Shown here piece by piece: positions 8,801 through 53,400 of a stretch of DNA of 64,000 bases. Source of the DNA: Branchiostoma floridae. Lineage: Eukaryota > Chordata > Leptocardii > Amphioxiformes > Branchiostomatidae. The notes under the pieces were generated by a model. The model was not told the origin of the DNA. It worked only from the letters and a program-made list of their open reading frames with translations, and made no database searches. Each line of letters begins with the position of its first letter. Position 1 is the stretch's first letter. The stretch spans positions 29,224,600-29,288,599 of the forward strand of contig NC_049980.1 in the NCBI RefSeq assembly GCF_000003815.2. The letters run 5' to 3'. A program made the position numbers and the translations under genes.

Positions 8801-11800
8801 ATGTAATGGCATAATCGCATAAGCCATTATGGCATAATTCGGGGATCAGCATAAAATAATCAGCCGAAAACCCCTGTGCCACAGGCAGCCCTGCAGGTTT
8901 GGCAGAAGAGCGGCGGGACCTCAGCGCCAAACGGAGCCGTCATGAGGACCTCTATCCTCGGTGTGCAGAACTACACAGACCTGCCGACTGTCGTCAGCAA
9001 CACTCGAGCTTTCTGCCTCACCACGCATGCGGATCCAAGGTAACAAGGGACTTCGTAGTTTTGTGTGCGCATGTGCTGTGTGGTGCATCGTAACTGTCAC
9101 ATTTTTACTGTTATAACTCATGGTGCTACGTTTGTGACTGGAACCTCAACCAAACTTAAATTGTGTTGTATTATGTTGCTCTTGTGTTGAGTTGTGTTGT
9201 TTATGTGTTGTGTTGTTTATGTGTTGTGTTATTTATGTTGTGATGAGTTGTATATATTTTGCGTTTTGTTAACGCCCTATATACTTGTTTTGTTGTGTTG
9301 TCTTGTGTTGTGTTGTGTTGTGTTGTAGATTCTAGCAACTACGTATAAACTTGCACATTTCTTTGCACGGCTACTTCACTGACCACGACAAATGGAATGT
9401 GTACTTTTCTTCAAACTAGCTGATAAGGAAAGCTCGTTTTTAGCTAACATAAAAAAAAATCACGGGTCTCAGTGGCAAGTGTCACACTGGCAACACCATA
9501 TCCGTAGGTGTTTTTGGCACCTTTAGACAGATTAGCCGTAAGGCTCGGTGGGCGTCACTCCACCGTCATAACTCTAACATACATCCAACATTAACAACAT
9601 TAACAACACCAGAAAAATAGTCAAAATAAATAATACAAATGAGTGACAAGCCACAGCAAACATAGTTTAACCCTACCACGTCTACTTGGACAGGTGTGTG
9701 GCGTCTTGCGTTGCCATGACGACGGCCATCGCGCTGATGCTGCAGGGGTGGCGGGACGTGTCGGACATCGCCCGGGAGAGCTTTGAGCATGCGCAGGCGC
9801 AGCTGCCGACGGGAAGAGATGCGATGGTACGTAAAAAAAAACCATCCCCTTCCCTAGCCTGGGTACCATCCGGGTAGCACGTTTGTGAAGATTAGTCATC
9901 CAGGGTGTTTAAATATGTAGTAAATTAAGTAGGAAAATAAGTTACTACGGGATATGAATATACAATACGTCCGGGTAGTAGTTCGCTCCTATGTTAGCTT
10001 CTAACAGCAGAAAAGCGAATGTATATAGTGTATAATGAATGTCACAGCATTCAGCAAGAAGAGACTGTATATAGTGTATAGTGTGTAATGAACGCCGGAT
10101 GGTACACAGGCTGCCCATTCCCCGGCCCCCAATAAACACACACATACATGCATAGAAAGTGATACCTTTTATCGATTATAGGAAGTATGCATTCCAAACG
10201 TACATATTTTCCAGCGATGTAATAGTGTGCTGCAATTTGATACGCGTATTGTTCCTTGCCGTAAGAGAAGTCTCAATTAATTTTTGAAAAATGAAAGAAT
10301 TTCTGAATCTTGACCCTGTACTGCAATACTTATTTCATGCTATAAATGGAAGTTATGCCTTATACATAACAAATTAATTGCACTCAAATTTGCAGTGACC
10401 GTTTCATTTTGTGTACAGAGGCAAGAGCTGATGGGGTATATGCAGGTGCGTGATCTGCGCATGCTCCAACTGGACGAGAGGGACACAATTGGTTACACGT
10501 ACAAGGCGTTAGGAGCCGGGTTCTGGGCACTCAGGCAGCGGAGCTTCAGGGACACCATCGTGAAAATTGCTATGGAGGTTAGCTCGTTACTTATCATAAT
10601 CAATTTGTGGAAGGTGGAACTTGATATTGACACAGAGCAAGGGAGCTGAAACCAAGAGAAGCAATACTGATGCGCAGCGCAGACGATCTAAAAGCGAATC
10701 CAGAGAAAAATATGTGTCCTATGTAGCAGAGACTGTCATACTCTGTTTAGCCATAGCCGAAGCTGTACGGCTGACAGCAAATAGAATTTTATCATAGACG
10801 GTCAATACTCACCGAAGAAGGCCATACACTATGGGAAGGGGGTCTATTAGATTAATCAACAAAATTTCATAACGAACCTCCCACTTTCACCACAACGTAA
10901 TGAGATAGATCAGACTGCTTTTACTGTGTTCTGCTTAATTTTTTTTAGTTTAAAAAAAATGATAAGTCAGTGAGTATACTACTTCAGTACGGTTGATGAT
11001 GTTCAACTACCTTTCTGGGCTTCGTTGAGACCAGTTTTCTCAAAGATTTGAGAACATTAATGTTGCAACCTTGATGTTCAGTGCATGTTTGAACCGCAGG
11101 GAGGCAATGCTGCCACCAACACCGCTGTGGCCGGTGCGCTGCTGGGCTGCCGGCTGGGGATGGACAAACTGCGGGGACCCTGGCTGTACGGGCTGCGGCA
11201 TAAGCACTGGCTGGACGATCAGATACAGACGTAAGACAGGAATATCTGTATACGCATACCATTAAGTTTATGATTGAACCACTTTGCTCCTTACGTTTAA
11301 AGTCGTATTTCTATCTCTTAGTGTCTATCTTCCTTATCATTTGGCTGGATGATCAGATACAAACGTGGGGCAGGAAATATCTTTCACACAAAAATCTAAC
11401 TCTTATTCTACTCCTTATTACTTCTTATGCTTTTCATTCGGTTTACGTTTGAACCGCTTTGCTTATTTCGTTTAAAATTTAATTTCTATCTCTTAGTGTT
11501 TATCATTTGCTCGCCGCTATGACTGTCTCCATGCTCTAACGCCATTCTTACTGTCTATTCATTTGGGTGTTTATCCTTTATTTCTCTTCGAATTCCTTCT
11601 TGATGACGTCAGCTATCTATCGTAAGTATTCAACGTGAAAAATACATTTATAAAGGCTGTTTTGTTTCCCAGTTTCTCTAATGGAATGAACTTGGTTTCC
11701 GGCTACGCCCCTGTCCTTGGTGCTGAACCTTCCGATGGAACTGCATTTGTTATTACCTCTGCGTAGCGTTTATCGTAATACTAAATCAAAGTAAAACATC

Positions 11801-13026
11801 TTAATTAAAGCTTCAAAATCACTATTTGGAGTACACATTGTTGTTCATACATGGTTCGGATCATGAGCGCTTCGGTTGCCTACTAACGTTGTAACTTTTG
11901 ACGTCTTTCCAGGTATCTCCGAGCTGTCAACGTCCTGCCAAAGCTGCTAGGGGGCGTGAAGCAACACAAACAACTGCCTGAAGTAGACCAATGGCTGACG
12001 GACATCATAAACAGAGAAAGGCGGGACAAAGATGCTGGAAAAGAACGGACTGACGGAGAACCACACGGGCAAACTCACGGTAATGACACAATATCGCGTG
12101 GCGAAAACGGATCTGAGTTGCCAACACCATCTTGGCGTCCACAGATGGTAATAGGTCACCCCACGGAAAACCAAAACGATAGAGACAGCCCGCCATCTGA
12201 TGTAGAAAGACCTTCATTGGAAAGAGTGTCCACAACAGAATGGGAGGGAGACGGTACAAATTTACCGGAGAGACAGAAGGGGCCCGTCGGGCAGCAATTA
12301 CACCTAGGTCCGCTTGAAAGAGACGGAACGGACGGTAGAACGGGATCGGTTTTTAATGGGGACCAGCGGGTACGGAACAGAAACACAGACGGCAAGCCTA
12401 CCGGCCCTCGGCTGGGTCCACTGCCAGAGTACACTGGTAGCGTTCACCCTGGAAACTTCAACTTGAAAAGACCAAGCGGTGATTTAAGCTACAGCAGGCC
12501 ACCGCTAACAAGTGGGCCATCGCAGGGCAGAAGAGATGTGACCCTGTACAGAAAACTGACGAACAGTCCTCTGCAAAACTTTGACATGAACAGTCCTAAA
12601 ACAATGCCACCTCGGAAAGCTATCTCCCCTCAATACCCAGAAGAGTTAACTCCCATAGCTGGAGATGTCAGAACTACTGACAGCCTTTCCCGCCACAGTA
12701 GACACTCCCTCCCGTCCGATATCACGTCGTTACTGCAGCAAAGCGAAAAGGGAGTTCACAAACTGAACTCGACTCGGATGAATCGTGAAGAACATGGAAG
12801 TAGCGTTCGACGTGCTAGCTCGCTTCCTTCTGACTCAGAGTACGCTTTTGACACGGCACAGAGTGGGCGGGAAAGGTTCAAACATTTTCACCCGAGATTG
12901 AGTTTAAGTTTGAGTTACCCCGGACAGGGGACTGACAGAAGGAAAGCACGATCGGATGATGGTTATGTGAGACAGGGGCGTTCTGTATCTCCAGTACGGC
13001 ATGTGAGGTTTTCTAGTCACAGGTGA
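5866..13026 (+). CDS. ADP-ribosylglycohydrolase (ARH/DraG-type) family protein with long disordered tail, eight exons
   Basis: Exons: 5866-5979, 7313-7447, 7995-8147, 8885-9039, 9694-9826, 10419-10577, 11100-11230 and 11913-13026. All junctions are GT-AG and the phases sum to 697 residues plus stop. The family removes ADP-ribose from proteins or small molecules using two Mg2+ ions. Family signatures seen are an N-terminal GTVYGQCIGDAVG segment (residues about 13-25), the metal motif WTDDSDQM (63-70, Asp65/Asp66), NGAVMR (150-155), and a C-terminal GGNAATNTAVAGALLG segment (284-299). In active family members that last motif reads G-G-D-x-D-T; here both aspartates are replaced (Asn286, Ala288), so activity is doubtful. 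The ATG at 5866 has a good context (caccATGG) and the first residues lead straight into the domain. Exon 3/4 could also join one base later in phase (donor 8148, acceptor 8887). The domain ends near residue 345; the rest is a low-complexity tail. The gene converges on the kinase gene. Confidence 0.88.
6511..7007. mobile_element. Long foldback element in intron 1 of the hydrolase gene
   Basis: About 500 bp with extended, imperfect inverted arms. The left arm carries gaacaagaatccatg, gatatct, agaaacacaat, tagtctggtt, ttcatccctgtagat and gtagagattgcgagtagatt; the right arm has the same phrases inverted in reverse order, ending in catggattcttgttc. There is no coding capacity. The structure fits a foldback/MITE element. 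Confidence 0.75.
7122..7129. promoter_or_regulatory. Full CRE palindrome in intron 1
   Basis: The sequence tgacgtca is the consensus cyclic-AMP response element bound by CREB/ATF factors. It lies in the first intron of the hydrolase gene. A single 8-mer can occur by chance, so this is only a candidate site. Confidence 0.25.
8388..8575. mobile_element. MITE, family B copy 1 (about 60-bp terminal inverted repeats)
   Basis: The left arm (accaaaaagcag, then actcaggcaactggatatg, then ttttggaaacggtcag) is mirrored by the right arm (ctgaccgtttccaaaat, catatccagttggttgag, then ctgctttttttggcgt). The centre is short, with catccgatg/catcggac repeats. It lies in the intron between hydrolase exons 3 and 4. 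A diverged copy lies at 22262-22381. Confidence 0.85.
8700..8850. mobile_element. Possible degraded MITE
   Basis: It begins acagtggaatccagctaattg, resembling the family A end, and contains two copies of ttcggggatc followed by gcata. The right end is not clear, so boundaries and identity are uncertain. Confidence 0.3.
9165..9327. repeat. TGTTG-type microsatellite
   Basis: Degenerate runs of ttgtg/tgttg pentamers, cleanest at about 9296-9325, lie in the intron between hydrolase exons 4 and 5. Confidence 0.8.
11205..11510 (+). repeat. Tandem duplication of hydrolase exon 7 end and donor
   Basis: The end of exon 7 with its donor (ggctggacgatcagatac, from 11209) recurs 134 bp downstream as ggctggatgatcagatac (from 11343), followed by a weaker donor, gtgggg instead of gtaaga. 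The following intron phrase tttctatctcttagtgt also appears twice (near 11308 and 11481). The second copy is an exon relic with a damaged donor. Confidence 0.8.
11913..13026 (+). CDS. Terminal exon of the hydrolase gene: disordered Ser/Arg/Pro-rich tail
   Basis: The exon starts in phase 2 after an acceptor tctttccag. It encodes the last helix of the hydrolase domain (TYLRAVNVLPKLLGGV) and then about 350 residues rich in Ser, Arg, Pro, Asp, Gly and Thr with no recognisable domain, ending FSSHR-stop. Basic phosphosite-like motifs are visible (VRRASSLPSD, RQGRSVSPVRHVRF). Typical family members end soon after the hydrolase domain, so this tail is an addition. The open frame of over 1.1 kb in otherwise stop-rich DNA, plus the phase match to exon 7, makes it coding rather than read-through. 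The function is unknown; a scaffold or localisation role is only a guess. Confidence 0.85.
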
Positions 13027-13499
13027 CGTGGAGAGGTGCACACGTGCCTAAGCTGCATACATAAATGAAATTAGCATTCATTTGCATATTTTAGATACAG
13101 ATGACTTGGAGAGGGGTATGTCTGTACATGAAGTAGATGATTATATTCATATACAGTAGAAGCTAACTATTTATATCAAGTCTTATTGGATACTGTGATT
13201 AGGGTAATTTGAAAGAATAACGAAATCCGAAACTGCCATTTATTCTATTTTAATTGTATAGTAACACGTATTTCTAAATACAACGACTATTTATGATATC
13301 AAGTATCCAATGTTGTGATTGAACATACATTTAAGCCAAAATAGTCTTTTGATACCACTTACACTGCACTTTATGAGTTCGACTGTAACCACACCCGAGT
13401 AGACAAGAAACAGGTACTTCATCGTGTTCCATTGATTATAAAAACAGGTGAAGTAGGGAGAGTTTTATCCATCAGAAGACTTATGGTTTAAAGATAGAA

Positions 13500-13505
13500 A
13501 ATAAA
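13500..13505 (+). terminator. Polyadenylation signal of the hydrolase gene
   Basis: AATAAA lies about 475 bases after the stop codon and just before an AT palindrome. It is the first canonical plus-strand hexamer I noted downstream of the stop. Confidence 0.5.
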
Positions 13506-13538
13506 ATGACACTGTTTACATAGTTTCATTACATTATT

Positions 13539-13643
13539 GACGGAAGCTATATATATATATATAGCTTCCGTCCAATTCATATATAACTATAACTATAACT
13601 ATAACTATATATATTTAGATATATGTATATATATATATTTAGA

Positions 13644-13716
<73 letters not shown>

Positions 13717-13736
13717 CTTCCGTCCAATTCATCCGT
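13539..13736. repeat. AT microsatellite with inverted and direct flanks
   Basis: An inverted repeat, gacggaagct(AT)nagcttccgtc, occupies 13539-13572. A longer (AT)n tract follows at about 13650-13713. The phrase agcttccgtccaattcat is then repeated directly at its far side. It lies between the 3' ends of two convergent genes. The Ile/Tyr-rich open frame across it is a repeat artefact. Confidence 0.9.
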
Positions 13737-13920
13737 CAAGAACCTGTCCATCCAACAACGAATCATCTTAAGCATCGTCTACAAAGCTTATACTTTCATA
13801 TCTAGCATATGAGTTCTGTGATAACCACTTATTGAATCGATCGCGACATGTACATACTAGCTATTTTCAATTATTTTATACGTCCTGTTGTCCCATTATG
13901 TTTAGAAACGAGGGGTCATT

Positions 13921-16900
13921 TCAAGTACAGGGAGTTGGTGTAGCGTACTCGGGTCCGTAGAAGGCGAGCTGCTTGTCCAGGTCGAGCTCCAGTGTGCGGA
14001 AGGACGGCCGCTCAGCCGGCTGCCAGCGCCAGCACTGCAGCATCAGGTCGTACCTGGGGAGCAAGGGGAAAGCAACATCTAGCGATCATGTCATCATTAA
14101 CAATATTTAACAGGAGGAGAGGAACGTATAACCATAACTGCGTAGTCTTTGGAAACTTCCGCACCGCTGCGAAGCGTGGTATTAACGTTAGGTCGGTCCC
14201 AGAGGGGCAAGAGTGTGTGGGAATCTTTCGGAACGAAATTTAGTGCACCTCCCCCATCAATTTTATAAAGATGATTTTTATTTCTTTTCTATTTTATATG
14301 AATAGTATTATATCTTACAAGCTCCTGAATAATCATGCCTTGTTATTCAAATACATCGATATCCCTACTATCACATCAGATAGAAAATGTCCTATGATGT
14401 TGCAGTTTTGACCATCAATTAACGTTATAACAGTACTAGTTGCTGGCGAACAGGATAACATAAAATCCACTAATGCATTTTCATCATATTTGGTGTTTAT
14501 TGATGTTTTGTTTTTATCTTGGTAGAAGTGCACGTCTATTTTGCCCTACGTTTACTACATGTTTCCATGAAACAAAGTTGTTTTACGTTAATGCCAGCTA
14601 TCAGGGTGTAGAAACATTGAAACTTACATGCCGGCGGGGCAGCCCTCAGGTTTGGACATCCTGAATCCAGTCTGTAGGCGTTCTTGCAGGTGGGCAATTG
14701 CCACGTCAGGGTAAGGATCGCCCCCTAGCGTACTTATCTCATACAGCACGATCCCGAAGGACCACCTGTTGGGAGGAGTTGATACAAGGACATGAAATGG
14801 AATGTATGTAAGACATCATCTGTCCAACTCTATTCTGATGCGAGACGGAAACGCTGCCATGTTGCCCATCTTAGAATATAAGATTGACTCATACATCGCT
14901 CTACGTGGTGCAAGATTAGAGTTAGGGTTTGCCTGAGTATCAGAGTTGCACTGAGGATGTGACAAAGCTACTCACACGTCGCTCTGTGCGGTGCAGTATT
15001 AGAGTTAGGGTTTGAGTATCAGTGTTGCACTGCGGATGTTGTAACAAAACTACTCACACGTCGCTCTGTGCGGTGTAGGCTTCCCCACCCTGCAGCCGCT
15101 CGGGCGCCATCCATTTCCACGGTACCTTCTGGAGGTGGTCCTGCCGACGGTAGCCTCGGCTGTAGATGTCTTCCGCCAGCCCGAAGTCGGAAATCTTCAC
15201 GGTCAGCTTCTCCCCGACCAGGACGTTCCGGGCGGCCAGGTCACCGTGGATGTAACGGGATCGGGCGATGTGGTCCTGAAACATAAGCATCATTTCATTT
15301 CATTTATTTATCAATATTACGAAACCTTTTAGCCCAATTAGGATAATATTACAAGGTTCACAACAATTCTTAACTACAAACATTTGAAAAGATACAGAGT
15401 GTAACAATACAATCAGAGTATCAACTATCAGAGTATTGACAATTAAAGCACAATGTTTGAGATAGCTTGGTTTAAACTGGACACTTTATCAAAGCATCAA
15501 CACAAAGGTTGTGACTACTCTTAGACTACTACGTCGCATCGTCTGTTGAAGCATCTGGTAGATATGCCGTTCTTGGTACGTCTGCATACATGATAGATCT
15601 TTAAATAGCGCTGGTGTGGCGTAATTGGTAGAGCTTTCGGCTCGGAATCTATAGGTCCTGAGATCGATTCCCGCCGTGCCCCCGACGATGTGCCCTTGGG
15701 AAAGGCACTTTACACGACCTTCCTCACTTCACCCAGGTGTAAAAATTGGTACCCGACTTCGGTCGGGGAAGTGAAAGACTATCTTTACCTTCTGTCTGTA
15801 CCGTGTATGTGGCACTGTTAATATTAGTTACTGTTAATATAAGTTACAAAACTTGAGTGCAGTGCCACATTGTCCTCGTCTATCCAGAAGCAAAATAGAA
15901 ATAGCGCTGCACTCACACTGCCTTAACTGATCTGTCAGGTCTCTTAAAGCATCTGTGAACACCTCTAAAAACAAGCACGTGTGCAGCCCAGCTGGTGCAT
16001 CTGAAGGATGCGGAACACCTGCAGAAACGGACTGGCATATTTGCACACCAGCTGAATATTCAACACCTGGTAACTGTACTCACCATGCCTCTAGCGATCT
16101 GCCGGCCCACCTGGTACATTTGCATCACCTCAAAGTTGTAGATGTCGTCTCGAGGACCGTCAGAGATCCCTTCCTGTACAAACACACTTCAAGTGACTTG
16201 ATAGCATTTGAAATTCAGAAATTGGAATCTTTTCAAAATACCCAAATTTAAAACATAAAACACTCTCAACGTCCGGATCTACAGGGCACTTCATCAGTGC
16301 TAGAATTAGTGCCCTCTCTTTCTGTTCTTTTAGAAGCCTTTGCAATTGGATTTCACGATTGTTCACCCCGTTGAATTTTGATGAATGTTCCTCAGATACC
16401 TTACGTCCCTTTGGTCTACAAGCCAGTTTACTCACTTACTTTCATAAGACGACACCAATGTGGCTCACCTGACATTTCCTTAGAAAGCCCTTCAGGTCTC
16501 CGTACGGCATGAACTCCGTGATGAGATACAGATGGTCTCGCACCACCGTACAGCAGCCGATCAGACCCAGCAGGTTCTTCTGAACCCCCAGGTCCACAAC
16601 TGCGCGGATTTCCTGCAGGAAACTCAGCTTGTCTTCCTCACTGGCGTTGTCTGTGGATGGTCAGAGAGGAACATTTGAAATGGCGTGAATTTGTGAAATC
16701 TTGTGCCCCAAATGGCTACAAATGGGAAAAGAAATGGGTGGAAATCTAGCGTCAGTCGTTGACATTTCGACCTAAGAGCATATTTCTGTAAATGCAGAAA
16801 CTTTCGCGGTGGTTTAATGTTCGCGGTTTTCGCGGTGGCCGCTTCACCGCGAACTTAAAACCACCGCGAACATTTTTCAGTAAGAGACTACAGTACAGGG

Positions 16901-17215
16901 AATGGTGTTACCGCGAAATTAAAACCACCGCGAAAAGTCCTTTTCCCCGCTACCGCGAAATTAAATCCCCGCGAACGTAAATGCATTTACAGTATATACT
17001 AGTATATGCACTAGTTCAGACAGAATCGGAATACACCTTTAACAGTTTTTACGACAACGTCCTCCGACTCCTCATCTGTCGTCAGGGTTGCCCGGTAAGC
17101 TAGGCCGAACGCCCCGCTGCCAATCCGCTCGCCAAGCGTCACCCGGCTGGGGTCGACCTCGAACCCCGGGAACTCTGGCCGGGCAGGAACCAGTGGGACC
17201 ATCTCCTGCATTCTC
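13921..17215 (-). CDS. Receptor-type tyrosine kinase, kinase-domain half, six exons (5' part not found)
   Basis: Exons in order: 17215-17037, 16650-16469, 16173-16084, 15275-15058, 14765-14628 and 14053-13921, ending in TGA, all GT-AG and phase-consistent (about 313 residues). Kinase motifs seen: Gly loop GERIGSGAFG, ATP-site Lys in VVVKTVK, helix-C Glu in SFLQEIR, hinge ITEFMPYGDL, catalytic loop IHGDLAARN, SDFGLAEDIY, VPWKWMAPE, SDVWSFGIVLYEI and CWRWQPAERPSF. The AARN and KWMAPE forms mark a tyrosine kinase of receptor class. The HRD arginine is Gly, so it is a non-RD kinase by sequence. The first exon begins in phase 2 with HNRRMQEMVPLVPARPEFPGFEVD, a juxtamembrane-like stretch, so transmembrane and extracellular exons should lie at higher coordinates, possibly in the gap at 19248-19760. 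It ends 12 residues after ...FYGPEYATPTP. It converges on the hydrolase gene. Confidence 0.9.
14880..15085 (-). repeat. Triplicated donor junction of kinase exon 4
   Basis: The last exon bases plus donor (plus-strand phrase tactcacacgtcgctctgtg) occur at the true junction (tcgctct at 15061) and again at 14979 and 14896 with 82-83 bp spacing. Each copy is followed by attagagttagggttt in the first two copies and by gttgcactg...gatg. All copies keep a GT. Using either distal copy would add GTG TGA to the frame, an immediate stop. Confidence 0.85.
15610..15800 (+). mobile_element. tRNA-derived SINE, copy 1
   Basis: The head resembles a tRNA: an A-box-like tggcgtaattggtagagc and a B-box-like gagatcgattcc about 40 bases later. 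The body contains cccttgggaaaggcacttta and cacccaggtgtaaaaattgg, a phrase shared with a second copy at 47390-47670. It lies in the kinase intron between exons 3 and 4. The conserved body phrase is typical of metazoan tRNA-SINE central domains; I do not assign a named family. Confidence 0.8.
16786..16992. mobile_element. MITE with 'cgcggt' interior
   Basis: The ends ctgtaaatgca / tgcatttacag are inverted. The interior has repeated ttcgcggtggttt and its complement, and accgcgaa modules. About 207 bp without coding capacity, in a kinase intron. The 62-codon frame across it is a chance frame. Confidence 0.85.
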
Positions 17216-17327
17216 CTGTTGTGGACTGTACAAAACATGGACCCTTAAAATAGATAAAATTGTATTTCTACAAGACATTTTGGAAAATGTACAATGGCAT
17301 AAAATAAAGCATAGTTTGCTAGTCTCT

Positions 17328-17460
17328 ACCAGACTCCGGATCGCTAGAAAATCGTAGAAATGGACCAAATAGAGAGGAATATCACCGGCCAGGGAACAGC
17401 ACTACCAGACTCCGGATCGCTGGAAAATCGTAGAAATGGAACAAATAGAGAGGAATATAA
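17328..17460. repeat. Direct repeat, 76-bp period, two copies
   Basis: The block ctaccagactccggatcg...gaaaatcgtagaaatgga...aaatagagaggaatat occurs at 17326 and 17402 with few differences. It lies just upstream of kinase exon 1. Confidence 0.85.
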
Positions 17461-19247: not shown

Positions 19248-19760
19248 NNNNNNNNNNNNNNNNNNNNNNNNNNNNNNNNNNNNNNNNNNNNNNNNNNNNN
19301 NNNNNNNNNNNNNNNNNNNNNNNNNNNNNNNNNNNNNNNNNNNNNNNNNNNNNNNNNNNNNNNNNNNNNNNNNNNNNNNNNNNNNNNNNNNNNNNNNNNN
19401 NNNNNNNNNNNNNNNNNNNNNNNNNNNNNNNNNNNNNNNNNNNNNNNNNNNNNNNNNNNNNNNNNNNNNNNNNNNNNNNNNNNNNNNNNNNNNNNNNNNN
19501 NNNNNNNNNNNNNNNNNNNNNNNNNNNNNNNNNNNNNNNNNNNNNNNNNNNNNNNNNNNNNNNNNNNNNNNNNNNNNNNNNNNNNNNNNNNNNNNNNNNN
19601 NNNNNNNNNNNNNNNNNNNNNNNNNNNNNNNNNNNNNNNNNNNNNNNNNNNNNNNNNNNNNNNNNNNNNNNNNNNNNNNNNNNNNNNNNNNNNNNNNNNN
19701 NNNNNNNNNNNNNNNNNNNNNNNNNNNNNNNNNNNNNNNNNNNNNNNNNNNNNNNNNNNN
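19248..19760. other. Assembly gap (N run)
   Basis: A run of N between the kinase and TIR genes. Upstream exons of either gene could be hidden here. Confidence 0.99.
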
Positions 19761-20540: not shown

Positions 20541-20665
20541 TTAGCCTGACTAAAATCGCGCTCCTAGCGGCCGACTCTATAGTTTTAGCCTATAGTATTG
20601 CCGCCGCCCTAGGGGAGGGGGTCATTAACCCCAGCCAGCGAGAGATCGTGTAAACACAGGCTAGG
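20541..20665. mobile_element. Possible short MITE
   Basis: It starts ttagcctgactaaaatcgcg and ends with acacaggctag, giving a short inverted tagcctg end; the interior is GC-rich. The evidence is only the ends and the composition. Confidence 0.3.
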
Positions 20666-22381: not shown

Positions 22382-22407
22382 CTTGATTTTGTTCCTTTGC
22401 ACGCCAG

Positions 22408-38400: not shown

Positions 38401-41400
38401 GCCTCTCTGTCAGCACTGTCCTCTCCTCGTCTGCAACACCACTGCTATGGAAACACACATCGGGTAGTTAGAAACTTTAACCCTTTCAGCCTCTCTGTCA
38501 GCACTATCTTCTCATCTGCAGTGCCACTGATATGGAAACACACATCAGGTAGCTGGAAAAAAATCACAAACTCACAATACAAATGTACCAGCACAAGGCA
38601 GTGCCAAGTAGATTTTATGGATTACATCCCTGTGTATAGTGGTGCGTACCGAAGCTCACGTTCCGGTTCAGGTCCGGACTCGAGTCCAAAGATTCCGGTT
38701 CAGGTCCGGACTTATAAGTCCGGTTTTTGACGGTCGCTAATTTTCCCATATAGACACAAGCATAAAGCGACTTTCTCTAGGCGACACGTAATTTGCGTCT
38801 CCGGCGCCCGCAACCACATTCGACCGGGCCGCATGCTATCAAAATATTGCCAAAGACGACTGCATCATTTTCAAAGTTGTAGAAACATCGACTTTTAATG
38901 AAAACTATCGGGAAATCACGGCAAAATCCGACCTTTTCCGCTTGTTTTTTGACGGCCGAAATTTCGAAATGGCGCTTGCGAGGTCATAGGGGTCAATAGG
39001 ATAGCCTACTGTAATGTGGGTAGAACTGATGCGTGCGGTGTTTTTATACTCTACATTCAACCTTACAAATTAATTGTAACTTAATTCGTTACAAAGATAA
39101 AGACAGGAGGTATAAAATAGTTTATGAACTTCAACTTTTTTTTAATAAAACGTGTCGGTGTTTCTTTTTAACAAGCTGCTCACCCATGCTTTCAGTGAAG
39201 TATCCCGGCAAGCGGCAAATGTCAACAGTCGCCGGAGATTTGTTTTAGCTTGTTTATCTCGGAAAGTTTCTTCATTTTCAGAAGATATGGGACTTAAAAC
39301 CCATACCAGGAGATAAACAAATCCACATACTTTATTTTCATGGGTAATATTGCTAAAGTGAACCTGTCATTTTTGCCGCGTTGCCGGATTTTGAAAGAAG
39401 GTTCCCGTGGCGCGACCATGTGCTTGGCCCGCTTATGGCGGTAGCCCGGTAGGACAATTCATTTTCGCAGAAATACGTTATTTTCTGGCCCGTTGGCTGC
39501 GATTAATAAAGTTACACAGGTATCTATCGTTGTTTTTAGATGATACTAATAGTATACAACAAGAAAGAGATTTCCGGTTTTCCAGAAAACCGGTTTTCGA
39601 CGTTCCGGTTTTAACCGGACTTGAACCGAAAGTTATAGCAAGTCCAAGTCCGGTTCGGCGAACCGGTACGCACCACTACCTGTGTACATTGATTTTTGCC
39701 AGATTTAGGAAAAAAAAACAACTTTTGTTCCAGCCAACATGACAAGAAAATGTCTGTTATCTGCAATATCATATTTTGTCTCTTCAATTCTTGTTGCAAT
39801 GCCTAAGGTCTCTAGATTGAAAATTTAGATCCCTAGTTTCTTTTTGCCTATCAGAAACCTAGTTCTTCATGCTTTGTGCATTAGATTTTGAGTCAGTGGA
39901 TGTTGTCTCTAAAATTTACTTGCTGTGGCCTAGGGACATAATTCTACAGCAGCAAAAATAGTGTCAATTCTTTCTCATTTTGAGAACAGCTAAAGAGGCT
40001 TTACAGAAGAAGCAGGTAGACAGGGCTCACCTTCCATCTCCACTGGAGCGGCTGTGTGTTCTCTGGCTACTCCCTTCCTGTATACTTCTACGTCATAAAG
40101 AAGGACTCATTACAAATGATACAGGTTTAGTATCAAGCAATAACCAAAAAGCTTACATTTATGATAATATTATATACATGGCGATTCTCAAGAAGACACA
40201 ACCATGACAAGTTGTATTGTAAATATCAGTTTGATTATGTGCTTACTGCAGACAGACATACAAAATGATAGTTTTGCTTTCTTGTGACTATTGCAGAACT
40301 GTATTCTTTATGTAAAAGGCACTCAATACTTAAAAAGTGGGGATGTCACAATTACCTCTTGTCACTACATCTACATGTTGTTAATTCTTTATGAGAAATC
40401 TCCTTTTTCCCAAATGAAAGTATTCAAGGTGAAATACAGGCACAAACAAATAAACAAACAAACAACTATGCATAGTTTCCTGAGCATAGGTATTATAAAC
40501 TTGAGATGAGCTAGAATGACTCACTTTCCCGGGAAGGATTCGTTGTATTCTCTTTCCTCTAGCTCCTGCACCTTTGCCTCTAGTTTTTCTGAAATAGGTT
40601 GATTTTCAACTGATGAAGCAGTCACAAATGCCAAGGAAATATCATCAGTTCAAAAAATTTCAATACAGAAAAACAAATCAGATGTTGAAGCAAGTTGACA
40701 CAAACAAAATGTGCTACAAAGTAGCGAATGAATATATTTTTGATAGACTTACTGTTTTGGTCCTCTAGCCTTCTCTTGGAGTTTTCTAGCAATACTATCT
40801 GGCCTCTCTGTAGAGACACCTGGGAAAAGATCAACAGTATTTGAAACAGAGAAACTAGGGAATCTGACTTTGATGCTTATTTTGTAAATGCTACTCTTCT
40901 GGTTCTGTCTCTGACATCCATACCACCAATTTCAAACCTGACCCTGTCCTTGGTGCTGAATTTCTCACAATACCGAATTTCTCATGATATGTTTAGCCCT
41001 GTCCATGGTGCTGAAAATCTCATAAGACTCTGGTCCTGTACTCAGTGCTGAATTTCTTATGAGAAGTTCTATCACCGTCCCTGGCGCTAATTTTCTCATA
41101 ATAGGCTCTAGACCTGTCCTTGCTGCTGAATTTCTAACAGAAACTCTTGCCCCATCCTTCATGCTGAAGCTCTAACAAAAAAAATTGACCCTGTCCTCGG
41201 TGCTGAATTTTTATAGTAGGTTCTGACCCTGAGATGAATCTCTCATTCAAATCTCTGGCCCTTTACTTGGACATGAATTACTAAAAAAAACACTGGCCCT
41301 GTCCTTCCTGCTGAATTTTTAAGGCATTTTTAAACAAGATCTGAATCTGTGCTTGGTGCTGAATTTCTCAAAAAGACTGGTCTTCTCCTTTCTGACAGCC

Positions 41401-44400
41401 TTTCGATGGTTAAAACACACACCTGGCTCTCTAATCTCGTTATTTCTTTCTTCATCTGTTTTGAGTCGTCACCTGAAATAAATTTTACCAAAAACATCTC
41501 AATATGATGAAACATAAGACATAGAGAAATTGACTGAAACTACAAATGAGAAGTCTATCATTACATAAAACTTTTCAAATACTCACTTCTATCTCCTGGA
41601 CTCTCTGGACTGGATATTAATCTGAAAAAAAAATGCAAATTCAATGATAAGTTATTGTGGGATTTCATTGTGTGCAGTACTAAATTCCAAAGGAGGGAAA
41701 AGAGTTCATACAGTATGCTGACACCATTTCTACTGTGACTGCTGAGCACCCAAACAATTTTGAAGACAGACAACAATTTCTTTTTATCTTTCTCGTGTTT
41801 CCTTGTCTTGTAAATCATACTTTTGCATCATGCATCTTATTCTAATCATGAAACCAAGGCCACACACAAATCCAATTTGGTTGCTTTAATGGTCGATCAC
41901 TCAGTAATCTAAACCAAAGTTGGCCTGACCAATCTACCCACCTGAGGTGTCTGTTCTCTAGCTCATTGTATGAGGCCTTCAAGCGCCTGTAATCTTCCTG
42001 AAATCTCTCGTTTTCTCGCTGCAACCTGAGGATCATGGGCATGATTGTCAGAACCACTGCAACAAGTTGTGAAGTCTTGTGATAAAGGACATGCACATAC
42101 CAAAGACTGATGAACAGAAAACATCGCTACATAATGCTGCCTCTTTTAGAAGTGAAAAGACATTGAGAGGCTTTTCAAACTTTATCCACCAAATGAAACA
42201 CCACACCTTGATCCTACTATTGTATAACTTTTTGATAATCACAAAGAAACAACAGCGCATGCAAGCTGGAGGAATTTTGACCATCAATTGACGTCATCAA
42301 GTATCATGCCACCAAGCATGCAGCACAGAATGCAATTTAATGTCAATCAAATCACCACACGATGTCCTTGAATCAAAACATTTCCGGCATGATTAGTGAT
42401 GATCGGCACATGTTAGTACAGCTGTTGCCGTGCACTCCACACACTCAGGTGGACTTACTGTAACACTCCACACACTCAGGTGGACTTACTGTAACACTCC
42501 ACACACTCAGGTGGACTTACTGTAACAAGGCTGGGTTGGTGTCTGTTCCACTGGGAGAATCGGCGGCAGACAGCCTCTGCCGCAATACCTCATTCTCCTA
42601 GCGAGACAGCAAAAACCACAGGGTATGCATGACAAGTCTGATTTTTGACTTGTCCTAACAATGTCAATCACAAGCCTTCCTTCAATAAAGCTTGCCATTT
42701 AAGTCATACATGTTCTTCTCTATATACATGAGAAAAATCACACAATGGAAAAATATCCAGGAAAATATCACATCTAGTGCATACATTGTTCTTGTATAGA
42801 TAAAAGGCATACAGAAAACATACCTAAAACTTAGAATGCATTATGTGGATTATGCTTTCTGTATGGCAAATAAAATGCACGTTGCTTTACACTCTATGAT
42901 TGAAAACTGGAAAGCTTCTGCATAAGACAAATTTCACAATAGGAGCAGTCTGCTACCAGCATTGCAGACGACTGGGCATCCTAGAATTTTAGCAGAGAAG
43001 TTGTTGTTGGTTCTGTAACAAAGTGAATGGTTAAAACATATCAATTCTGGCATGCAATTCATAATGCAATACCTCTACACATTGCTGGGTATAGAATCTC
43101 ATGGAAACATACAGTGATGGAATAGTCCACAGACATGGCAGCCAAGTACAGACCTTCTCCAGCCTGGTGAGCTGATGTTTGATGTCATCGTTGACCCCCT
43201 GCAGGTTCAGCCTCTCCCTCTCCAGAGCCTGGCAGCGCTCGTCCAGCTCGGCTGTGCGGATGGTCGGGTGGTTGATCAGGATCTCCGACATCTTGGTGCG
43301 ATCCATGGACAGGCTGGAGTCTTTTTCCGCCTGAGTAGACCAGTAATATTATCAGTGAATTTGGTCACTTGAGGCCACAGAAAAAATACATTATTTTGAC
43401 TATTTCATTTGTTAAAATTCCCTTGCACAATCAAAGTTCTCACAAACTACAATTTCTATTTGAAGCATTCAGGAAAGAGGCTGTGTGAATGTGTCACATT
43501 TTGCTTTCAAGCAAGGTTATTATTCTAAAGGAATTATAGATTATGGAAAGGGAAGAACCATTTGACTGCTTTATAACATGCAAACATAAAGCATTTCCCT
43601 GAATTCTAAAACTATTCTTCAAGAAGACAAGGTGTAAATAAATACACAGACCATTAACTCTTCTATCTGTTGTATCAGCTGAGTCCTATCTCGCTGTAGC
43701 TCTTCTAGTTTGTCCCTAAAGGAAAAAAAGACAAAAAATCAAAATATTGCATTTTGACTACAATCAGCAAAGCAGATGCTGAAACAAACTTACACGATAA
43801 TAGCTAAAGGGATTCAAAATTGACCTCATGGTGTTTCTATATTGTATTCATTATACAATACATTGTATATTATTCAAGAACAAGAGACAAACAAAGAAAA
43901 TTGTACCTGTTAACTTGACTTTTCTAACAGAAAGACCAGATACTAGAAAATACTCTCAACTACAAGAGAAAGAAACCCACTGGTTCAGTGTCAGTTCTGC
44001 CTTCATCCTGTCCACCTCTGCCTGGAGCTGCTCATAAGGCTCTGAGCCTGGCTGGGGCTGGAGAAACATTGTATGTATGGGTATAGCATCAGGAGATAAT
44101 AGCATTCTGTGTACACATAACCAGATGTTCACACCTAGTACCTAGCGACATGTTGGTGACGTGTCTGTCACCTTCCTCATTGCGGCTAGAACAAGTCAAA
44201 GGATTATCTCTTTGCTTGTGAGACCTTTGTCATCTAGTTTCATCAATCTGATGAAACTATTTGCTGAGTAGATGAAGTAGGCATGAAGTAAAACCATCTA
44301 AAGTTTGGACTAGTATACCAAATAACCCTTTGCTCACACAAAATATAGATACAATTGGCTACATAATACAGAGTATTAGCAAAATACACTATTTGTTGGT

Positions 44401-47400
44401 GAAAAATGACTGGTATGAACCACCATAACAAAAGCTTGGACTGAAAGGATTCATTTCTTAACTTAAACGCTGTTCTTTAGAAACCCACAAATATTGCTTG
44501 TGCCTACATAAGGCCTGGTTGTAATACACAAATTAGAAAGGAACCTGATATTTTACGAAGGACCAGGCATAGATTGTGGGTGTTATGCATGGTGGTGTCT
44601 ACCTTAGTGAGGATGTTTTTCTGCATCTCTAACAGCCTGATGACCTGCTGGTTCTCCGCATTCTCCTGCTGCAGTCTCTGCTTCTCTTCACCCAGCCTGT
44701 GCAACACAGGTGCTTCATGTCAGTTTGTGCAATATTGTTACCATCAAATAGCTATATTATAGTACTGTAGTCTATACTTGTTGGAATGGGAAAAAAAGCT
44801 ATTAGCTGAAAAGTCTATGCTACACAATCTCTTGCTGCTTAGGACCTCCTCCTTGAGAGCTTGTGGCCGTACACATCTAACATAAGGGAGCCCGTTAAAT
44901 TCCTAGAATTATCAATAGCTCAGGATTCTCTGTTTTGTCACCATGGAAACCAGTGACCACACCTCTATCACCATGGTAAAGGACAGTTCTCAGTCTGACT
45001 ATACATTTAAAAAGACAGTTAGTTAGCACATATGGATAAGTCAACTAGGATGTTCCCAATTTTCCCTGTTGGGTATCAAGTTTCCAGAGGCCTAACCAGT
45101 AGAAGGGCTGCTAGAAGTAGAGCTGTGTACCAATTGGTGGTGTTGAGGAATTATAGCTCCTATGCAATTGGCTTGTGTCTAGTGCAATTTAACTCTGTAG
45201 GTATCAGTTCAAACATGCTTTTGTCATCATCTAAAATCGACCATTATTTGAACAAGTAGTCCAGGTACAGATGCAGGTCTTAACCTGTACCTAAGCCAAT
45301 GTACTAGTACCTGTACCTAAAATTTACTTAGGAGGTACACAGCTCTAGCTAGAAGGTTGATTTAAGGCTAGCTTGCTACCATGTCAGAGACTTTTACCCA
45401 TCATGCTTGCTCACCTGTCCATCTCCTGCTGGGCTTCCGTCAGCTCTGCCTCCTTCATGGTCCTCAGCTGCTGCTCCATTCTCAGGGCAGAGTTCTGAAA
45501 CAAGGGTCACCAAGAGGTAAATAGTTTTTGCATGTCGGTGAATCAATTGAACATAGTTTTCCTGTGTACATAACATGCTACTCAGCCAGTTGACAGTCTG
45601 TCTGCTCTCTTCTTGGCAGGGATGTAGTCAAAATGTTGCAAGGACATTACAGTCGGATTTGGGACTGCATCCTTGCCGTTTGGTCACAAAGCAGTAGTAA
45701 CGCTGATGTCCAAGAACAAATTGTCAGAACAATTATGTTCCACAGGTCACATTTTGTGTGCACTTTATTCATTTATTTATCAATCTTGTGTACTGACTAC
45801 ACTTCACTTAGCACTTTCAGCACAAATATTATTTTTGCATTGACAAAAACAGCAGACAGACTGTTAAAACATTTGTATAGTAGAATAATAAGTCTGTGTT
45901 CAGAAAAAACTATGTTCAAAGGGTCACCAATGTTTACCAAAGAACAGTACCTCATATCACACACCATTTCCTTCATGCAGAACTACAGCTAACAAGATGT
46001 GCAACAAGGGACTTCCAATGGAAAGCCCTTCAGCACTAATTGACCCGCAGTGCAATTTTGTTTTCAGCACCAAGGACAGGACCATCAGCTTGCCTGCTCC
46101 ACATCCATAGTTTTGGTTCCCTACTTTACTAAGGTGTTTCTGTGTTTTTAAAGTAAAAGACCGATCCTGGCTGTCCATCACAATTAGCTATGCAGCCAAT
46201 GATAGCATGGTAATTATCAGTTCCACTAATGAGACAGGCTGCATGTCTGTTAAAGATCTGCATTTCTGGGTTTTCATTTTTACGTTTTGATGAAGGTGGA
46301 CTGGACTATGGGATTGGACTTAAGGACATGATAGTGACGGGTTCAGAAGTGCCATCTTGCAACACAGTGAATTACTGCAGCAACACGTCCTCTCAGTCCT
46401 CCCTACCTTCTCCTGTATGTCCTGCAACTTTTGCTGCAGATTTCTGCTATGGGATCGGGCTTAAGGACATGATAGTTCGGGCAAGCAAATTTTTTATGTG
46501 GTGAATTTTCGAAAACTTGTGCAACCCTGAACCCGTCTTCTCAGTCCTCCCTATCTTCTCCTGTATGTCCTGTAACTTTTGCTGCAAGCAAAACGTTGGT
46601 TTGGGCAGGCAAAGTTTTGTGTAGTGAACTTTAGAAAATTTGTGCAACCCTGAACACCTCTTTTCAATCCTCCCTACCATCTCCTGTATGTCCTGTAACT
46701 TTTGCTGCAAGCAAATTTTTTATGTAGTGAATTGTAGCAAACTTGTGCAACCCTGAACACCTCCTTTCAATCCTCCCTACCTTCTCCTGTATGTCCTGTA
46801 ACTTTTGCTGCAGATTTCTGCTATGCAATTGGGCTTAAGGACATGCTAGTGATGGGTCCAAAAGAGCCATCTAGCAACACAGTGAAGTACTGCAGCAACA
46901 TGTCTTCTAAGTCTTCCTTACCTTCTCCTGAATGTCCTGTAGCTTTTGCTGCAAGCAAAACGTTGCTTCGGGCAAGCAATTTTTTTAAGGTAATGAACTC
47001 TAGAAAACCTGTGCAACCCTGAACGCATCTTCCAAGTCCTCCCTACCTTCTTCTGTATGTCCTGTAACTTTTGCTGCAGGATTTCTGCTATGGGATTGGG
47101 CTTAAGGACATGATAGTGATAGGTCCAAAAGAGCCACCTAGCAACACAGTGCAGTACTGCAGCAACATGTCCTCTATAAGTCCTCCCTACCTTCTCCTGA
47201 ATGTCCTGTAACTTTTGCTGCAGATTCCGCGCCTCGTCCTCCTTCCTCTCAAACATGCCCGTCAGCCGCTCGCACGTGTCTCTCCACTCCGCACACTCCG
47301 CCTGCACCTGGCCCATGGTGTACTGGTGCTCCTCATTTGCAAGGGACAGTTTCTGAAAAGGCAATTTGCATTGTCAACTTTTATACATTTGTGGGATCAT

Positions 47401-50400
47401 GCAGGGTGTTTGGTCTAGAAATCAGAGATCCTGTCCTGGGTTTGAATCCTGTCATACTAGCAATCTTATGCCCTTAAGAGAGGCACTTAACGTGACTTTC
47501 TTTACTCCATCCAGGTGTAAAAATGGTTACCTGACTTTGGTTCGTGAGGTAAAAGTGGTAGAAGGTGAGAGCCCTCCAATAGCCTGCCCTACACACTGTG
47601 GATAACAACCTACTGCCCCTACGGCCTTATAAAAGGCTATTTTATCTACATACATACATACAACATGTATACATATGTACATGTTTGTTGGCCAAAAAGT
47701 ACTCTATGTTTTTGTCTTATGTTACAATGAGTACGATGATTTCTCAGACTGCTGCAATCACACCCACCTTCTCAAGCTCCCTTGTTCTTGTGTCCAGCTG
47801 TTGTTTGTTGTCTCTCAGCTCCTGTAATGTTTCCTAAACAAAACAAGCATGAACAAAAACAGGCTCATCAAAGTTTCTCCTAGTATGTTTTATTTCATGT
47901 AGCTAATTTTAGTGTTGACATCAATTATGAAAATAAGGTTTTGATTAACCAAGGAGGTGTCTTTTTTAACCTCCTTGGATTAACATTACATTTGTCCATT
48001 GATCACTCTCATCATAACGATGATGATGATCATAGTGGTAAGCGTACAGAAAAATGCTACTGGAAAAACACAAACAGACCAAAAACTACACATCTTCCAT
48101 AAATTAGTGGCCCGGCCTTCCGTTAATATGACTGTCAGTGTCATGTCTATTTCTCTACAAAATGTGCTCTCTCCATTCACTTACCCTGAGGTTCCTTTGC
48201 TGCTCATCCCACCTTTCTCTGTCTGTCTCTTGCTCCTTCTTCAACCTCTCAAAAGACTACAGTGAAAAGCACGTGAAGAAACTCAGTAGATGACAGAATC
48301 ATAAAAGATCTATTTATTCAGGGCCACTTGAGATATGTTATGTGAATTAGGTCACACACATTGTGAGATGAAATCATTCTAGTTGTAGTTAGGGGTCAAG
48401 TCGTTCCCTATTTAGTTGTAGCCATGCTCTCTGGAGTGATTACACAATCATGGATAATCAGCTTCGAACACTCCACCCAGAAGGTCTCAACTTAGAATCA
48501 CTGGAAATAATCAGGTTATGATGAGGGAACTAGAGATATAGTACTCGTCGTAACCAGCACTAACATTTGTAATCACAACTCTCTGAAGTGGTGGTCATGT
48601 TGTGAATGAAATGTAGTGTCTTGGACCTCAAAAAGACAGGTTAAACCTGAGCCATGTTGACACAACATAATGAAGGATGTACTAGAGACTCCTCTTTAGT
48701 CTATCAGCAGCACTACATACCTTGTTCAGTAGGTCCTTGTCCTGTGTGACCCTCTTCAGCTCCCCCTCCAACATCAACTGCTGTTGTGCTGCCAGGCGTT
48801 TGCTGTTCTCTAGCTGTTTGTTCAGCTCTTGGGCCTTCTCCAAGTTGTGCTTGACCATCGACAGCTCGCTGGACAGGTCTTCACTCACCTGTGGGGGGCA
48901 CAAATGGTTTTTAGAGTTTTATTTATTGATTTTCTATCTAACAAGTGACAGCCTTTTTCAGTCTAGGGAATTCATTACCGAGAGTGTAGTGAGTTCAACA
49001 ATAATGCCATTTTGGATGCTTTAATATGTATGTTGCAGATGTAATGATTGTAATTGATGGCATTGCTACCCCTACAAGCGGTGAGGCTATGGGACCGGTT
49101 AGGTGAGGTTAGGTGAGGTGAGGTGAGGTGAGATGTAATCGTACACAGTTTGACTATGGCTATGTGTAAAACACAGGCTATGTCAGAACCACAAAAATGT
49201 ACAGTATTGTAGAGTTTGTAAGGATTCAAGTCCCCTACAAAAAAAATCAAAGCCCAAAGTGAAACAAAGACATAAATTATATTCATGACATATAAATCAT
49301 AAGCCAACAGCTCTAGATGTTACCTTTTTGACAGCATTGAGCTCCTGTTCTACCCGGAGTTTCTCCTGGTTGTTCTTGTCTGCAGACAGCTTGGCCTGTG
49401 CCAGGTCCACGTGTAGCTCTGTACACTGTTCTTCTACCGCATGTTTGGCCTAAGTGAAACATCAATTAACATGATATTACATTCCTTCAGTAAAGGAAAA
49501 CAAAGAATTAACAGTGAGATAAAAGACTCAAAGATTGGACCAATAAACTTTCTTGCAGTCAAAACTACCCTAAAATCATTCTGGAGGCCAGTAAAACTTC
49601 TAAGAGGTTTAAGAGGTCTATGTGCTTGTGTCAATAGATAGATTATCTAGTAAGTGACCACCAAAATATGGCCACACTGGCCAGGTGGCCCTTATGTAGA
49701 GGTGCCTACTTGTACAGGTTTGAGTGTATCTTTCTGTGCATTCTGTACCACATTTATTGTCTTAGAAAGTTGAAACATTATTTTTCCAATAAGGATGTAG
49801 AACTAGATGATGCAAACATCTAATACTAGTCTTGTTGAATTTACAAAACTAAAAGGTACACAAATTGAGACATAGTCAAATCCCATTTGATCTCGAACCT
49901 TCTGAAGCTGTTCCTTGTCCACCGTCATCTTCTGCACCTTCTGATGAAGGTCAATCTTCTCCTGAAACAGTCTGTCCTTCTCTGCCGTCACGCTGGCTAG
50001 TTTGGACTTTGCATCGGCCAACACGTCCTCTAGTCTGGTCGTCCGGGTAAACAAGCTGTCTCTCTCCTAGAGGTGGGATAAATACCATCATAATATCTTA
50101 TGTGTTATGTTGACAATAAGAATATTCTAGATTCATCCATTCCCCTGTGCCTGAGTCCAGACCTTTGCAATGCTAGTTATATGTTCCAAAAATTCAATTC
50201 TCAAAATGTATTGTGTATCATGTTATGATGGTATTCATATTTTACGTGATATAAATCCTGACATGTTTGCAATGGTTCTATTTTCACATTTTTGCAGGGA
50301 CCTCTTACTGAAAAATACTGTGAGCTTTGTCTTTTCAACTATAGAAAAATCTGTTTCCAAGAAGATAAAATGTCACATATACCTCCTTTCCCCTCCTGCC

Positions 50401-53400
50401 ATGGAGTTAAGTCCCATAAAAATAGATTAATTCATAGTATATGTATTTGTTGACTTGAGATGCCTTTAAGGAGCGATAATTCCTCAGTCAAATTCTTACC
50501 TGCTTGACCCTGCTGAACTCATCTCCGATGTTGGACCAGTCATCCTTCAGGTGTGCGTATGACGTGGTGACTTCTGCCAGCTTCTGGGTAACCTCGCTGT
50601 TCTGTGTGATCAAGGCTTGCTGTTTCTGTAGGAAAAGTTCAGGCATGGAATCTTATATCGTGGAAAGGGTATCAAAATCTATTTAAGATGACTGGATGCC
50701 ACTACAGCCAGTGAGGCGATTGGACCGGTGAGGTGAGGTGAGGATGCCACTACTGATAGCCAGTTACAAGCTACAGGACAAAGATGAATACCCAAATACT
50801 GTCAATACAATAACATTTAAGTCAGCAAGTCTGCAGTGCTTAACATACTAGTAATCATGGCCAAATTGATTTACTTTAAATGCATTGTTTTGTGAAGGAG
50901 TCACTGCAATAGCCTTAGACATGCCCAAGGCTGACAGCGCATGGTTGGAGAGAGAATGGAGGAGAGAAACGAAGGAGATATGGAGGAGAGAAACGAAGAA
51001 GGCGGAAGTGTGAAATCGAAAACAACATTGTCGGTCTATCTTCTGTTAACAGAATTATAGATCTGCATCAAAATACAAGTATGAAGTATAATAACAGTGG
51101 GAAAGTTTTCAGACCTCCCTAAGACTGTTCGCCTCCTGCTGTGAGACTTGTTTCTCTGCCTCCAGCTTGTCCGCCCGCAGCTTGGCCAGCTGGAGAGACT
51201 CTTTCAGAGCAGTCATCTCCCGACCCATGGTGTCTTTGGTCTGGGGAGAAAACATGTTACAGCCGTGAGAAACGTGGTGTCTTTGGTCTGGGGGAGAAAA
51301 TACATTAACTATGTTACAGCCATGAGAAACATGGAAACACAGACTCAAGGGTGGGTCCAAGAAATTCTGATGAGGCACTGGTGGACTAAAGCAAACAAGG
51401 CTGGACTCCATGGTAACTTTTCATTCTTTAAACATCTTCAACACAAACGAGAATCCCTTATTAATTCTACCTACATTATCGGAAAATATTTCTTTCCCTC
51501 ACATGTTGTTTAGACTTATAAACAGGATTAGAGATTACTATAATCATCCCTGCTCCCAAACCTTCTGAAAGTTGTTGTTTTCCTGCTCCATCATGTTGAG
51601 TGCAGTACTGGTCTGGTCCACTAGGGCCTGTCTCTGCCTGTACTCTGCCTGTAAGGTGCTGTAGGAGGCCTGTAAGCCATGCAGTTCAGCATCCAGCTGA
51701 CCAATTCTGTAAAATAGGAACAAGGAACAAGTTGCTGTGCTGAGAAGCAAATGTCTGGTGTGTATCACTGCATGACTTCCATTTCATTAAAGAATGGCTA
51801 ATGGTAATAGGAATTAAAGGTTTTATGAAAAAATTGCTGTACTATTGCCATTATGAAAAATGATCATTGGTAACAAATGGTTTATTCAAAGAACAAGAAG
51901 AAAAGCCATGCAATTGATAAAGAAGGGTGCTGAAGATATATCTTATATAATATTATACTGTTCAGTTTGTTGCAGTCAGTAATATTCTATGTCCTCTCTA
52001 TATAAGGATAAAATTATGTTTACCATTCACGATTAATTTTCGACAACCTATCAGTGAGAAATGCACTACTATATTGCAGTCATCTGATGAGACTTCTAAG
52101 GCCTCTGTTGAGCAACTAAATTTGGATTTATGTAACCCTTCAAATATGATAATAGACAACAATTGAAAATAGTTAAAGAATCCATAAACTCTGTTGGGCG
52201 ATCTGTCAAATTTTCGTCACTCCTTGAGGGCTAACATGTCAATGGGGTGTAAGTACAGTAAACACAGTTCCCCACCCACCTGTCATGAAGCTCATCCCTC
52301 CTCTGGATGCCTTCAATCTGTGTCGCCTCCAGCTCAGCCTTATCCTTCTCCAGCGTGTTCACTCGGAACTCCAGTTGCTGTAGCAAAGTGTACAAAGTTA
52401 TAAAAGTTTATGACAAGTCAGAAAGAAAGTAAAATTGTCCGTCGATCCCTAAGTCAACTTTGATATAATGCATTCAGTTTTGTTATCCTTTGAGCACAAT
52501 TTTTCAATTTTCTTACGTCTACTAAAGAAAAATTCATGAAATCTACAAAATTTCAATCACAATCTTTTAAATACATTTTATAAAAAGAGCATTCACAGAA
52601 GCGGCAGCAGAGTTCTGTAACCAATAACTTGTACCGTGCGGTAATAGCAGATGTAGCATGAGTCATACATGCTTTAGTTACCTGTTGGTGAGACTTCATG
52701 TTAGCTACGGTCATCTTGCTCTCGCTTAGCTTCCCCTCAGCCTCGGTTAGCCTCTCCGTCTGCAGCTGCAGAGTCTCCTGCGCCTCCCGCAGTTTGTCCA
52801 CCAGGTTGAGCCTCCTGGACTCGCTCTCCTGCAGACTGTCCTGTAGTACCTTCTCCGGCGACATCCCGCTTGGCGTGGCGTAGAAGGAAGAGTCTTGGGA
52901 CTGCTGTCTGCTTGGAGAGGGACTTCTGAACAGGGAGTCCTGGGGCCTGTGTAGAGACTCGTGGGACTGTGCCCTGTAGATGGAGTTCTGAGGTCTGTTT
53001 TTGCTGTAGGAGTGAGGTTTGGACCAGGACGGACTTCTGTGGACGGGACGGCCCAGCTCCTCTTTCCTTCGGTCGTATGTTTCACCGAGAAGGGACAAAG
53101 CTCTGGCGATGACGGGGGACTTTGTCTTCAGAGAAGACATGGACAGGCTGTGGCTGCAAAGGTTTCACAAAGTAATGTTACTTCCAACAGCTAGGGGAAT
53201 GAAAAATCTTAATAATTCATTTTCCTGAAGTGAAATTCAACATTATGAAAGAAAACTACACTTTATCTAACCAACACTTGCTTGAGGCACCTCCTTCAAC
53301 GTGGGACCACCTGCCACCACTGTTCTACGTCCCTTTCAAAAGATGAATGCTATCCCTTACAACATGTCCGGGTTGAGTTTACACATGAATTTTTTCTTAA

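Follow-up and report, generated by a model that had tools for sequence, protein, structure and literature searches.

The window analysed here is a stretch of 64,000 nucleotides from the amphioxus Branchiostoma floridae (RefSeq assembly GCF_000003815.2, contig NC_049980.1, positions 29,224,600 to 29,288,599 of the forward strand), within which short tandem arrays coincide with splice junctions of three genes. Positions given without further designation are those of the window. The coiled-coil gene (29845..53562, minus strand), whose model was rebuilt from the sequence, has 37 exons and 36 introns, all of them GT-AG, and encodes 1441 amino acids in a single open frame from the first exon found to the stop; no start codon was located. 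Comparison of the coiled-coil protein with Pfam gave no family above its cut-off. The second gene is ADP-ribosylglycohydrolase-like (5866..13026, plus strand; ADP_ribosyl_GH, Pfam PF03747; hereafter the hydrolase) with eight exons and a frame that reads through, and the third encodes a tyrosine/serine-threonine protein kinase (13921..17225, minus strand; PK_Tyr_Ser-Thr, Pfam PF07714) with six exons, likewise in a frame that reads through, and is partial at its 5' end. Together the three models contain 96 junctions.

Seven arrays at splice junctions

An initial annotation of the window had proposed that seven separate local duplications each span an exon-intron boundary. Using Tandem Repeats Finder (TRF), self-BLAST, pairwise alignment and splice-site scoring, we found all seven to be real, and each contains a splice junction of a rebuilt gene model, five on the donor side and two on the acceptor side. 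Substitutions distinguish the unit copies within each array other than the 31-bp array described below.

One array lies in the hydrolase gene, where the exon 7 donor region is present as two diverged copies (11208-11334 and 11342-11511, plus strand), with the real donor after 11230 and the copied donor after 11364. These copies are identical in 102 of 170 aligned columns and their alignment scores 57.5, whereas none of 200 letter shuffles exceeded 21; the duplication was missed both by TRF and by the exon-blind finder of local duplications introduced below. In the kinase gene, TRF, self-BLAST and donor scores delineate three copies of 82-83 bp at the exon 4 donor (14887..15078, minus strand). 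The real donor is at 15058 and the others at 14976 and 14893, the last having lost its GT.

The remaining five arrays belong to the coiled-coil gene and lie on the minus strand. At 35466..35764, TRF, self-BLAST and pairwise alignment identify two copies of an exon end with its donor (35625-35764 and 35466-35603), identical at 132 of 140 positions and separated by 21 bp. This array had been read as the copy of a whole coiled-coil exon; the duplicated stretch is really the last 90 of the 132 exon nucleotides together with the donor and roughly 50 nt of the intron, and the acceptor is outside it. A second donor array, of 31-bp units (42433..42527), contains three identical donors, the real one at 42521 and the others at 42490 and 42459. 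Another exon end is repeated at 46306..47223 in seven units that run from 47217 to 46407, each containing the 27 nt that close exon 47191-47352 and encoding QKLQDIQEK or a near variant. On the acceptor side, an 88-bp array with nine AG sites (37750..38559) repeats the acceptor of exon 37651-37804, and a 47-bp unit with the acceptor of exon 51115-51240 is present twice (51228..51325), with sites at 51287 and 51240.

The effect of the extra sites on the reading frame was assessed for the sites tried. Splicing at the extra sites of the hydrolase, kinase, 31-bp, 47-bp or 88-bp array would truncate the protein, and in these five of the seven arrays the frame stays open only via the copy adjoining the exon body. 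For the 88-bp array, four of the eight upstream AG sites were tried; none of the four preserves the frame, which is preserved by the last AG (37804). Because only the exon-adjoining site works among those tried, the extra copies in the truncating arrays would, on the predicted frames, amount to added intron.

Two intronic arrays that contain no junction served as controls. One, at 30559..31082, was detected by TRF and self-BLAST and derives from a telomere-like (CCCTAA)n repeat; it is an interstitial stretch within a coiled-coil gene intron and has a 69-bp higher-order unit. The other is a diverged 38-bp array at 40938..41348.

Array turnover in a second gene copy

A search with the 88-bp region returned one other place in the assembly, at 7.56 Mb of the window's own contig (C2), where the coiled-coil gene is present a second time. 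The result bears out the view of the initial annotation that the units, which differ in period and sequence, are not copies of one element. The second copy, of which pieces were taken from C2:7.556-7.573 Mb, lies 21.7 Mb from the window. Across the 17 exons compared it is 98.2% identical (29 differences in 1617 bp, with 24 silent and 4 replacing codon changes), and collinear stretches of at least 200 bp that include introns are 84-94% identical; a further piece matches window positions 33150-34926. Such figures would suit either a recent duplicate or an allele placed wrongly in the assembly.

Four arrays were compared between the two gene copies, and unit number differs in all four. The second copy has five units of the 31-bp donor array against three in the window, one unit of the 88-bp acceptor array against nine, one exon end against two, and three 27-nt units against seven. 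Therefore the arrays change quickly, which upholds an earlier suspicion of instability. Where the second copy has a single unit (the 88-bp acceptor and the exon end), intron positions are unchanged. The second copy also has another arrangement of the 38-bp control array.

Two further observations concern these surroundings. An element of about 1 kb (38637-39678) with 15-bp terminal inverted repeats, TAGTGGTGCGTACCG, shares its intron with the 88-bp acceptor array; it is absent from the second gene copy and is therefore probably a recent insertion. At C2:7575300-7577400, a 183-bp unit is repeated about 4.4 times and has no match to the window.

Taken together, we consider it probable that the seven arrays are "mirages", the name given to tandem repeats across an exon-intron boundary in the amphioxus genes for Adh3 and the globins BflGb6 and BflGb9, in the passages available of PMC3087553; that is, they would be ordinary, unstable tandem duplications of minisatellite type that take in a splice site by chance, with an excess that is local. 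A stretch of roughly 30-170 bp would be duplicated in place, by slippage or error-prone repair, and unequal exchange might then add or remove units, as the differing unit numbers suggest. A duplicated stretch with a donor or acceptor in it would leave its surplus copies in the intron, and the duplication would be tolerated since it is spliced out with that intron, as those same passages report for Adh3 and the globins. Frequent hits on junctions would follow from their spacing, with one to every 300-490 bp of these genes.

Junction excess, the kinase family and alternative readings

What weighs against this reading is the excess of arrays at junctions within the window, the difference between the window and a genome sample, a kinase donor array that probably arose separately, and two arrays whose copies would preserve the reading frame. 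The excess was measured with each array collapsed to one unit and placed at random. On a list of arrays made by eye, 7 of 11 lie on junctions against 2.40 expected (P 0.0015). An exon-blind finder of local duplications was run at a score of at least 22, at which two dinucleotide shuffles gave no hit; arrays of dinucleotide entropy below 3.0 bits were excluded before counting, in the window and the sample alike. It placed six of eight arrays on a junction, where 1.94 were expected (P 0.0026), and its treatment of the 31-bp array as a 62-bp unit is conservative. At a stricter score of at least 25 the count was five of seven against 1.79 expected (P 0.012). The window excess is about threefold and nominally significant, with P values that are optimistic because the window was chosen after the pattern had been noticed. 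The initial annotation had considered junctions a tiny part of the gene, a premise that proved false, since they occur on average every 295 bp in the coiled-coil gene, every 320 bp in the kinase gene and every 491 bp in the hydrolase gene. A random unit of 31-226 bp placed in the coiled-coil gene contains a junction with probability 0.09-0.55.

From the assembly (513 Mb in 431 contigs) we took six 40-kb blocks at round coordinates as a sample of 240 kb, in which exons were predicted by a home-made exon finder and the null takes in intergenic DNA. Trained on the coiled-coil gene alone, the exon finder recovered 24 of 24 junctions of the kinase and hydrolase genes; trained on sample exons alone, it recovered 69 of 96 window junctions. 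The version used was trained on the window and 76 sample exons and run at a cut-off of 13; it recovered 85 of 102 window exon ends at a cut-off of 12 and 73 of 102 at 14. In this sample 3 of 30 arrays lie on a predicted junction against 5.46 expected (P of three or more, 0.94), and with looser exons 4 of 30 against 7.11; neither count is an excess. Under a twofold genome-wide excess, three or fewer of 30 would have a probability of 0.0007. Two of the three junction-touching arrays are, by eye, the arms of one inverted repeat and probably mark false exons. As raw counts, a genic subset of 126 kb holds 17 arrays, of which two touch a predicted junction (the same inverted-repeat arms) and three lie entirely within exons. 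Set against the sample, the window stands apart (6 of 8 versus 3 of 30, Fisher P 0.0007, with true junctions in the one and predicted junctions in the other).

Junction targeting as a rule of the genome was rejected, given no excess in 240 kb with predicted exons. The earlier claim that arrays meet junctions more often than chance holds nominally for the window and not for the sample, and the general targeting mechanism built on it is not borne out: this small sample with its predicted exons argues against one, and the roughly threefold excess of the window looks local.

A single junction can be followed more widely through the kinase family, since the exon 4 donor region has at least 162 matches. 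We compared 13 loci: in addition to the window these were C12:2.35 Mb and eleven others in which exon 4 could be read. They were chosen among the best matches to a query that itself contained the array, and arrays are over-represented among them for that reason. Eight of the 13 carry an array at the exon 4 donor. Donor motifs, counted in the stretches fetched and as lower bounds where the array continues, number 3 in the window, 2 on contig C5, 10 on C183, 7 on C18, and 4, 7, 18 and 16 at four loci of C8 (1.52, 24.97, 25.06 and 25.26 Mb, respectively). A single donor is present on C4, C6, C12 and C15 and at C8:24.43 Mb. The GT is kept in 2 of 3 donors in the window and in every donor of the relatives (18/18, 16/16, 10/10, 7/7, 7/7, 4/4 and 2/2). 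By eye, the arrays of C2 (the window), C5, C8 and C183 have intron sequence and breakpoint in common, and C15 has a matching intron start and no array. The C18 array has other breakpoints, with an exon part of 23-31 bp versus 9-24 bp, and its intron part does not align with the others; because of these two differences, it probably represents a separate, second origin at the same junction. A tree of exon 4 was too short to resolve the number of array origins.

Other features of the kinase arrays were noted in passing. At C8:25253000-25255600 there are 31 copies of the kinase donor unit and no exon 4 within the fetched stretch, and similar matches occur at C8:25.249-25.251 and 25.257-25.260 Mb. 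Spacings in the long arrays are mainly multiples of three (69, 72 and 75), and those in the short arrays are not (79, 82, 83 and 86). By eye, a stop lies just past the donor in the exon frame, so that coding offers no explanation of the spacing, which may be due to chance.

Some individual junctions, the kinase exon 4 donor among them, may act as hot spots. As an alternative account of the arrays, certain junctions would provoke repeated local duplication through their sequence or through their transcription or splicing, and the threefold excess in the window speaks for this, as do kinase arrays of 2-18 copies in 8 of 13 loci with a probable second origin on C18. The 240-kb sample, however, has no excess, and shared intron sequence and breakpoint allow one origin to explain seven of the eight kinase arrays, among loci picked with an array-holding query and with an exon 4 tree that leaves the origins unsorted. 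We regard this account as improbable. A more specific proposal, that single junctions are heritable duplication hot spots, can be offered only tentatively and seems unlikely; here the kinase donor would have grown arrays at least twice, and the arrays would outlive gene duplication and reach 18 GT-keeping donors while the spliceosome still picks the exon-proximal copy.

It is quite unlikely that the copies are used, as tandem alternative exons, in-frame microexons or redundant splice sites that yield protein variants. Two arrays would permit it: inclusion of the second exon-end copy (35514-35624) adds 111 nt in frame, and inclusion of a 27-nt unit adds 27 nt with the frame kept. The GT is also intact in the copied donors of the kinase relatives, but unit turnover alone also predicts intact copies. 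In the second gene copy the exon end is not duplicated, and the donor and acceptor arrays would truncate the protein. The 27-nt units had been called microexon-like, and six of the seven keep a GT; the microexon reading is nevertheless weak because their acceptors score poorly, all but one ranking no higher than the bottom 2% of real sites in these genes, and the exception (at 14%) has a donor that lost its GT.

That the arrays are assembly artefacts, repeats collapsed or stretched at allelic joins, is scarcely credible: there are runs of N within the window, and the second gene copy on the same contig could be a misplaced haplotype, but the 31-bp and 27-nt arrays are present in both gene copies, the kinase array is found in eight loci of diverged sequence, and the copies within arrays, those of the 31-bp array excepted, carry substitutions.

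Elsewhere in the window, a further gene is predicted on the plus strand at approximately 23506-26907, with an exon (26664-26907) that resembles a TIR domain by eye, and a tandem duplication of 384-386 bp lies at 57589-58598, outside the coiled-coil, kinase and hydrolase genes. A tRNA search and an Rfam search at gathering cut-offs found none. A dispersed family with GGTAAGTTTGGAGAAACGTAAGGTAAGT and close variants, a donor-like motif repeated 21 bp apart, occurs on contigs C3 (4.9-5.8 Mb), C7 (mostly 16-18 Mb) and C154.

Comparison with amphioxus mirages and related systems

Understood as mirages, the arrays resemble natural competition assays, in which 3-18 near-identical donors or nine acceptors stand at fixed spacing and the frame seemingly allows one. 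The rule by which a site is selected (nearest the exon, first met, or with the best neighbours) is an old question that is usually approached with built minigenes. In addition, the two coiled-coil gene copies give a direct view of array gain and loss.

The window arrays fit the mirages of amphioxus, and the phenomenon is already known. In the passages available, mirages are described at both kinds of boundary with units of 10-160 bp, BflGb6 haplotypes carry six versus three units, and reverse transcription PCR (RT-PCR) found splicing undisturbed (PMC3087553); they are also reported in troponin C and PGBD5, in the part available of PMC3902484. As in those genes, the unit spans an exon-intron boundary (7 of 7 arrays), on the donor or the acceptor side and with a locus-specific length, unit number differs between two gene copies, and the extra sites fall inside the intron.

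Two other systems are related. The idea that introns are gained by tandem duplication of AG/GT stretches, cited in the available passages of PMC3087553, likewise has a local duplication create extra splice sites, but in the window there is no new intron position and existing introns lengthen. Ordinary intronic minisatellites are represented in the same genes by arrays of the same kind (30559-31082 and 40938-41348), which differ in containing no junction.

No genome-wide survey of mirages was found in the literature searched. Unlike the published mirages, seven arrays are packed here into some 40 kb of adjacent genes, the kinase array recurs in a gene family with up to 18 copies next to the exon, and one window array copies most of an exon with the frame kept. 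Relative to the published passages available, what is new is the density of arrays in one window, the comparison of copy number for multiple arrays in a single gene, the family-wide kinase array and a small test of junction enrichment.

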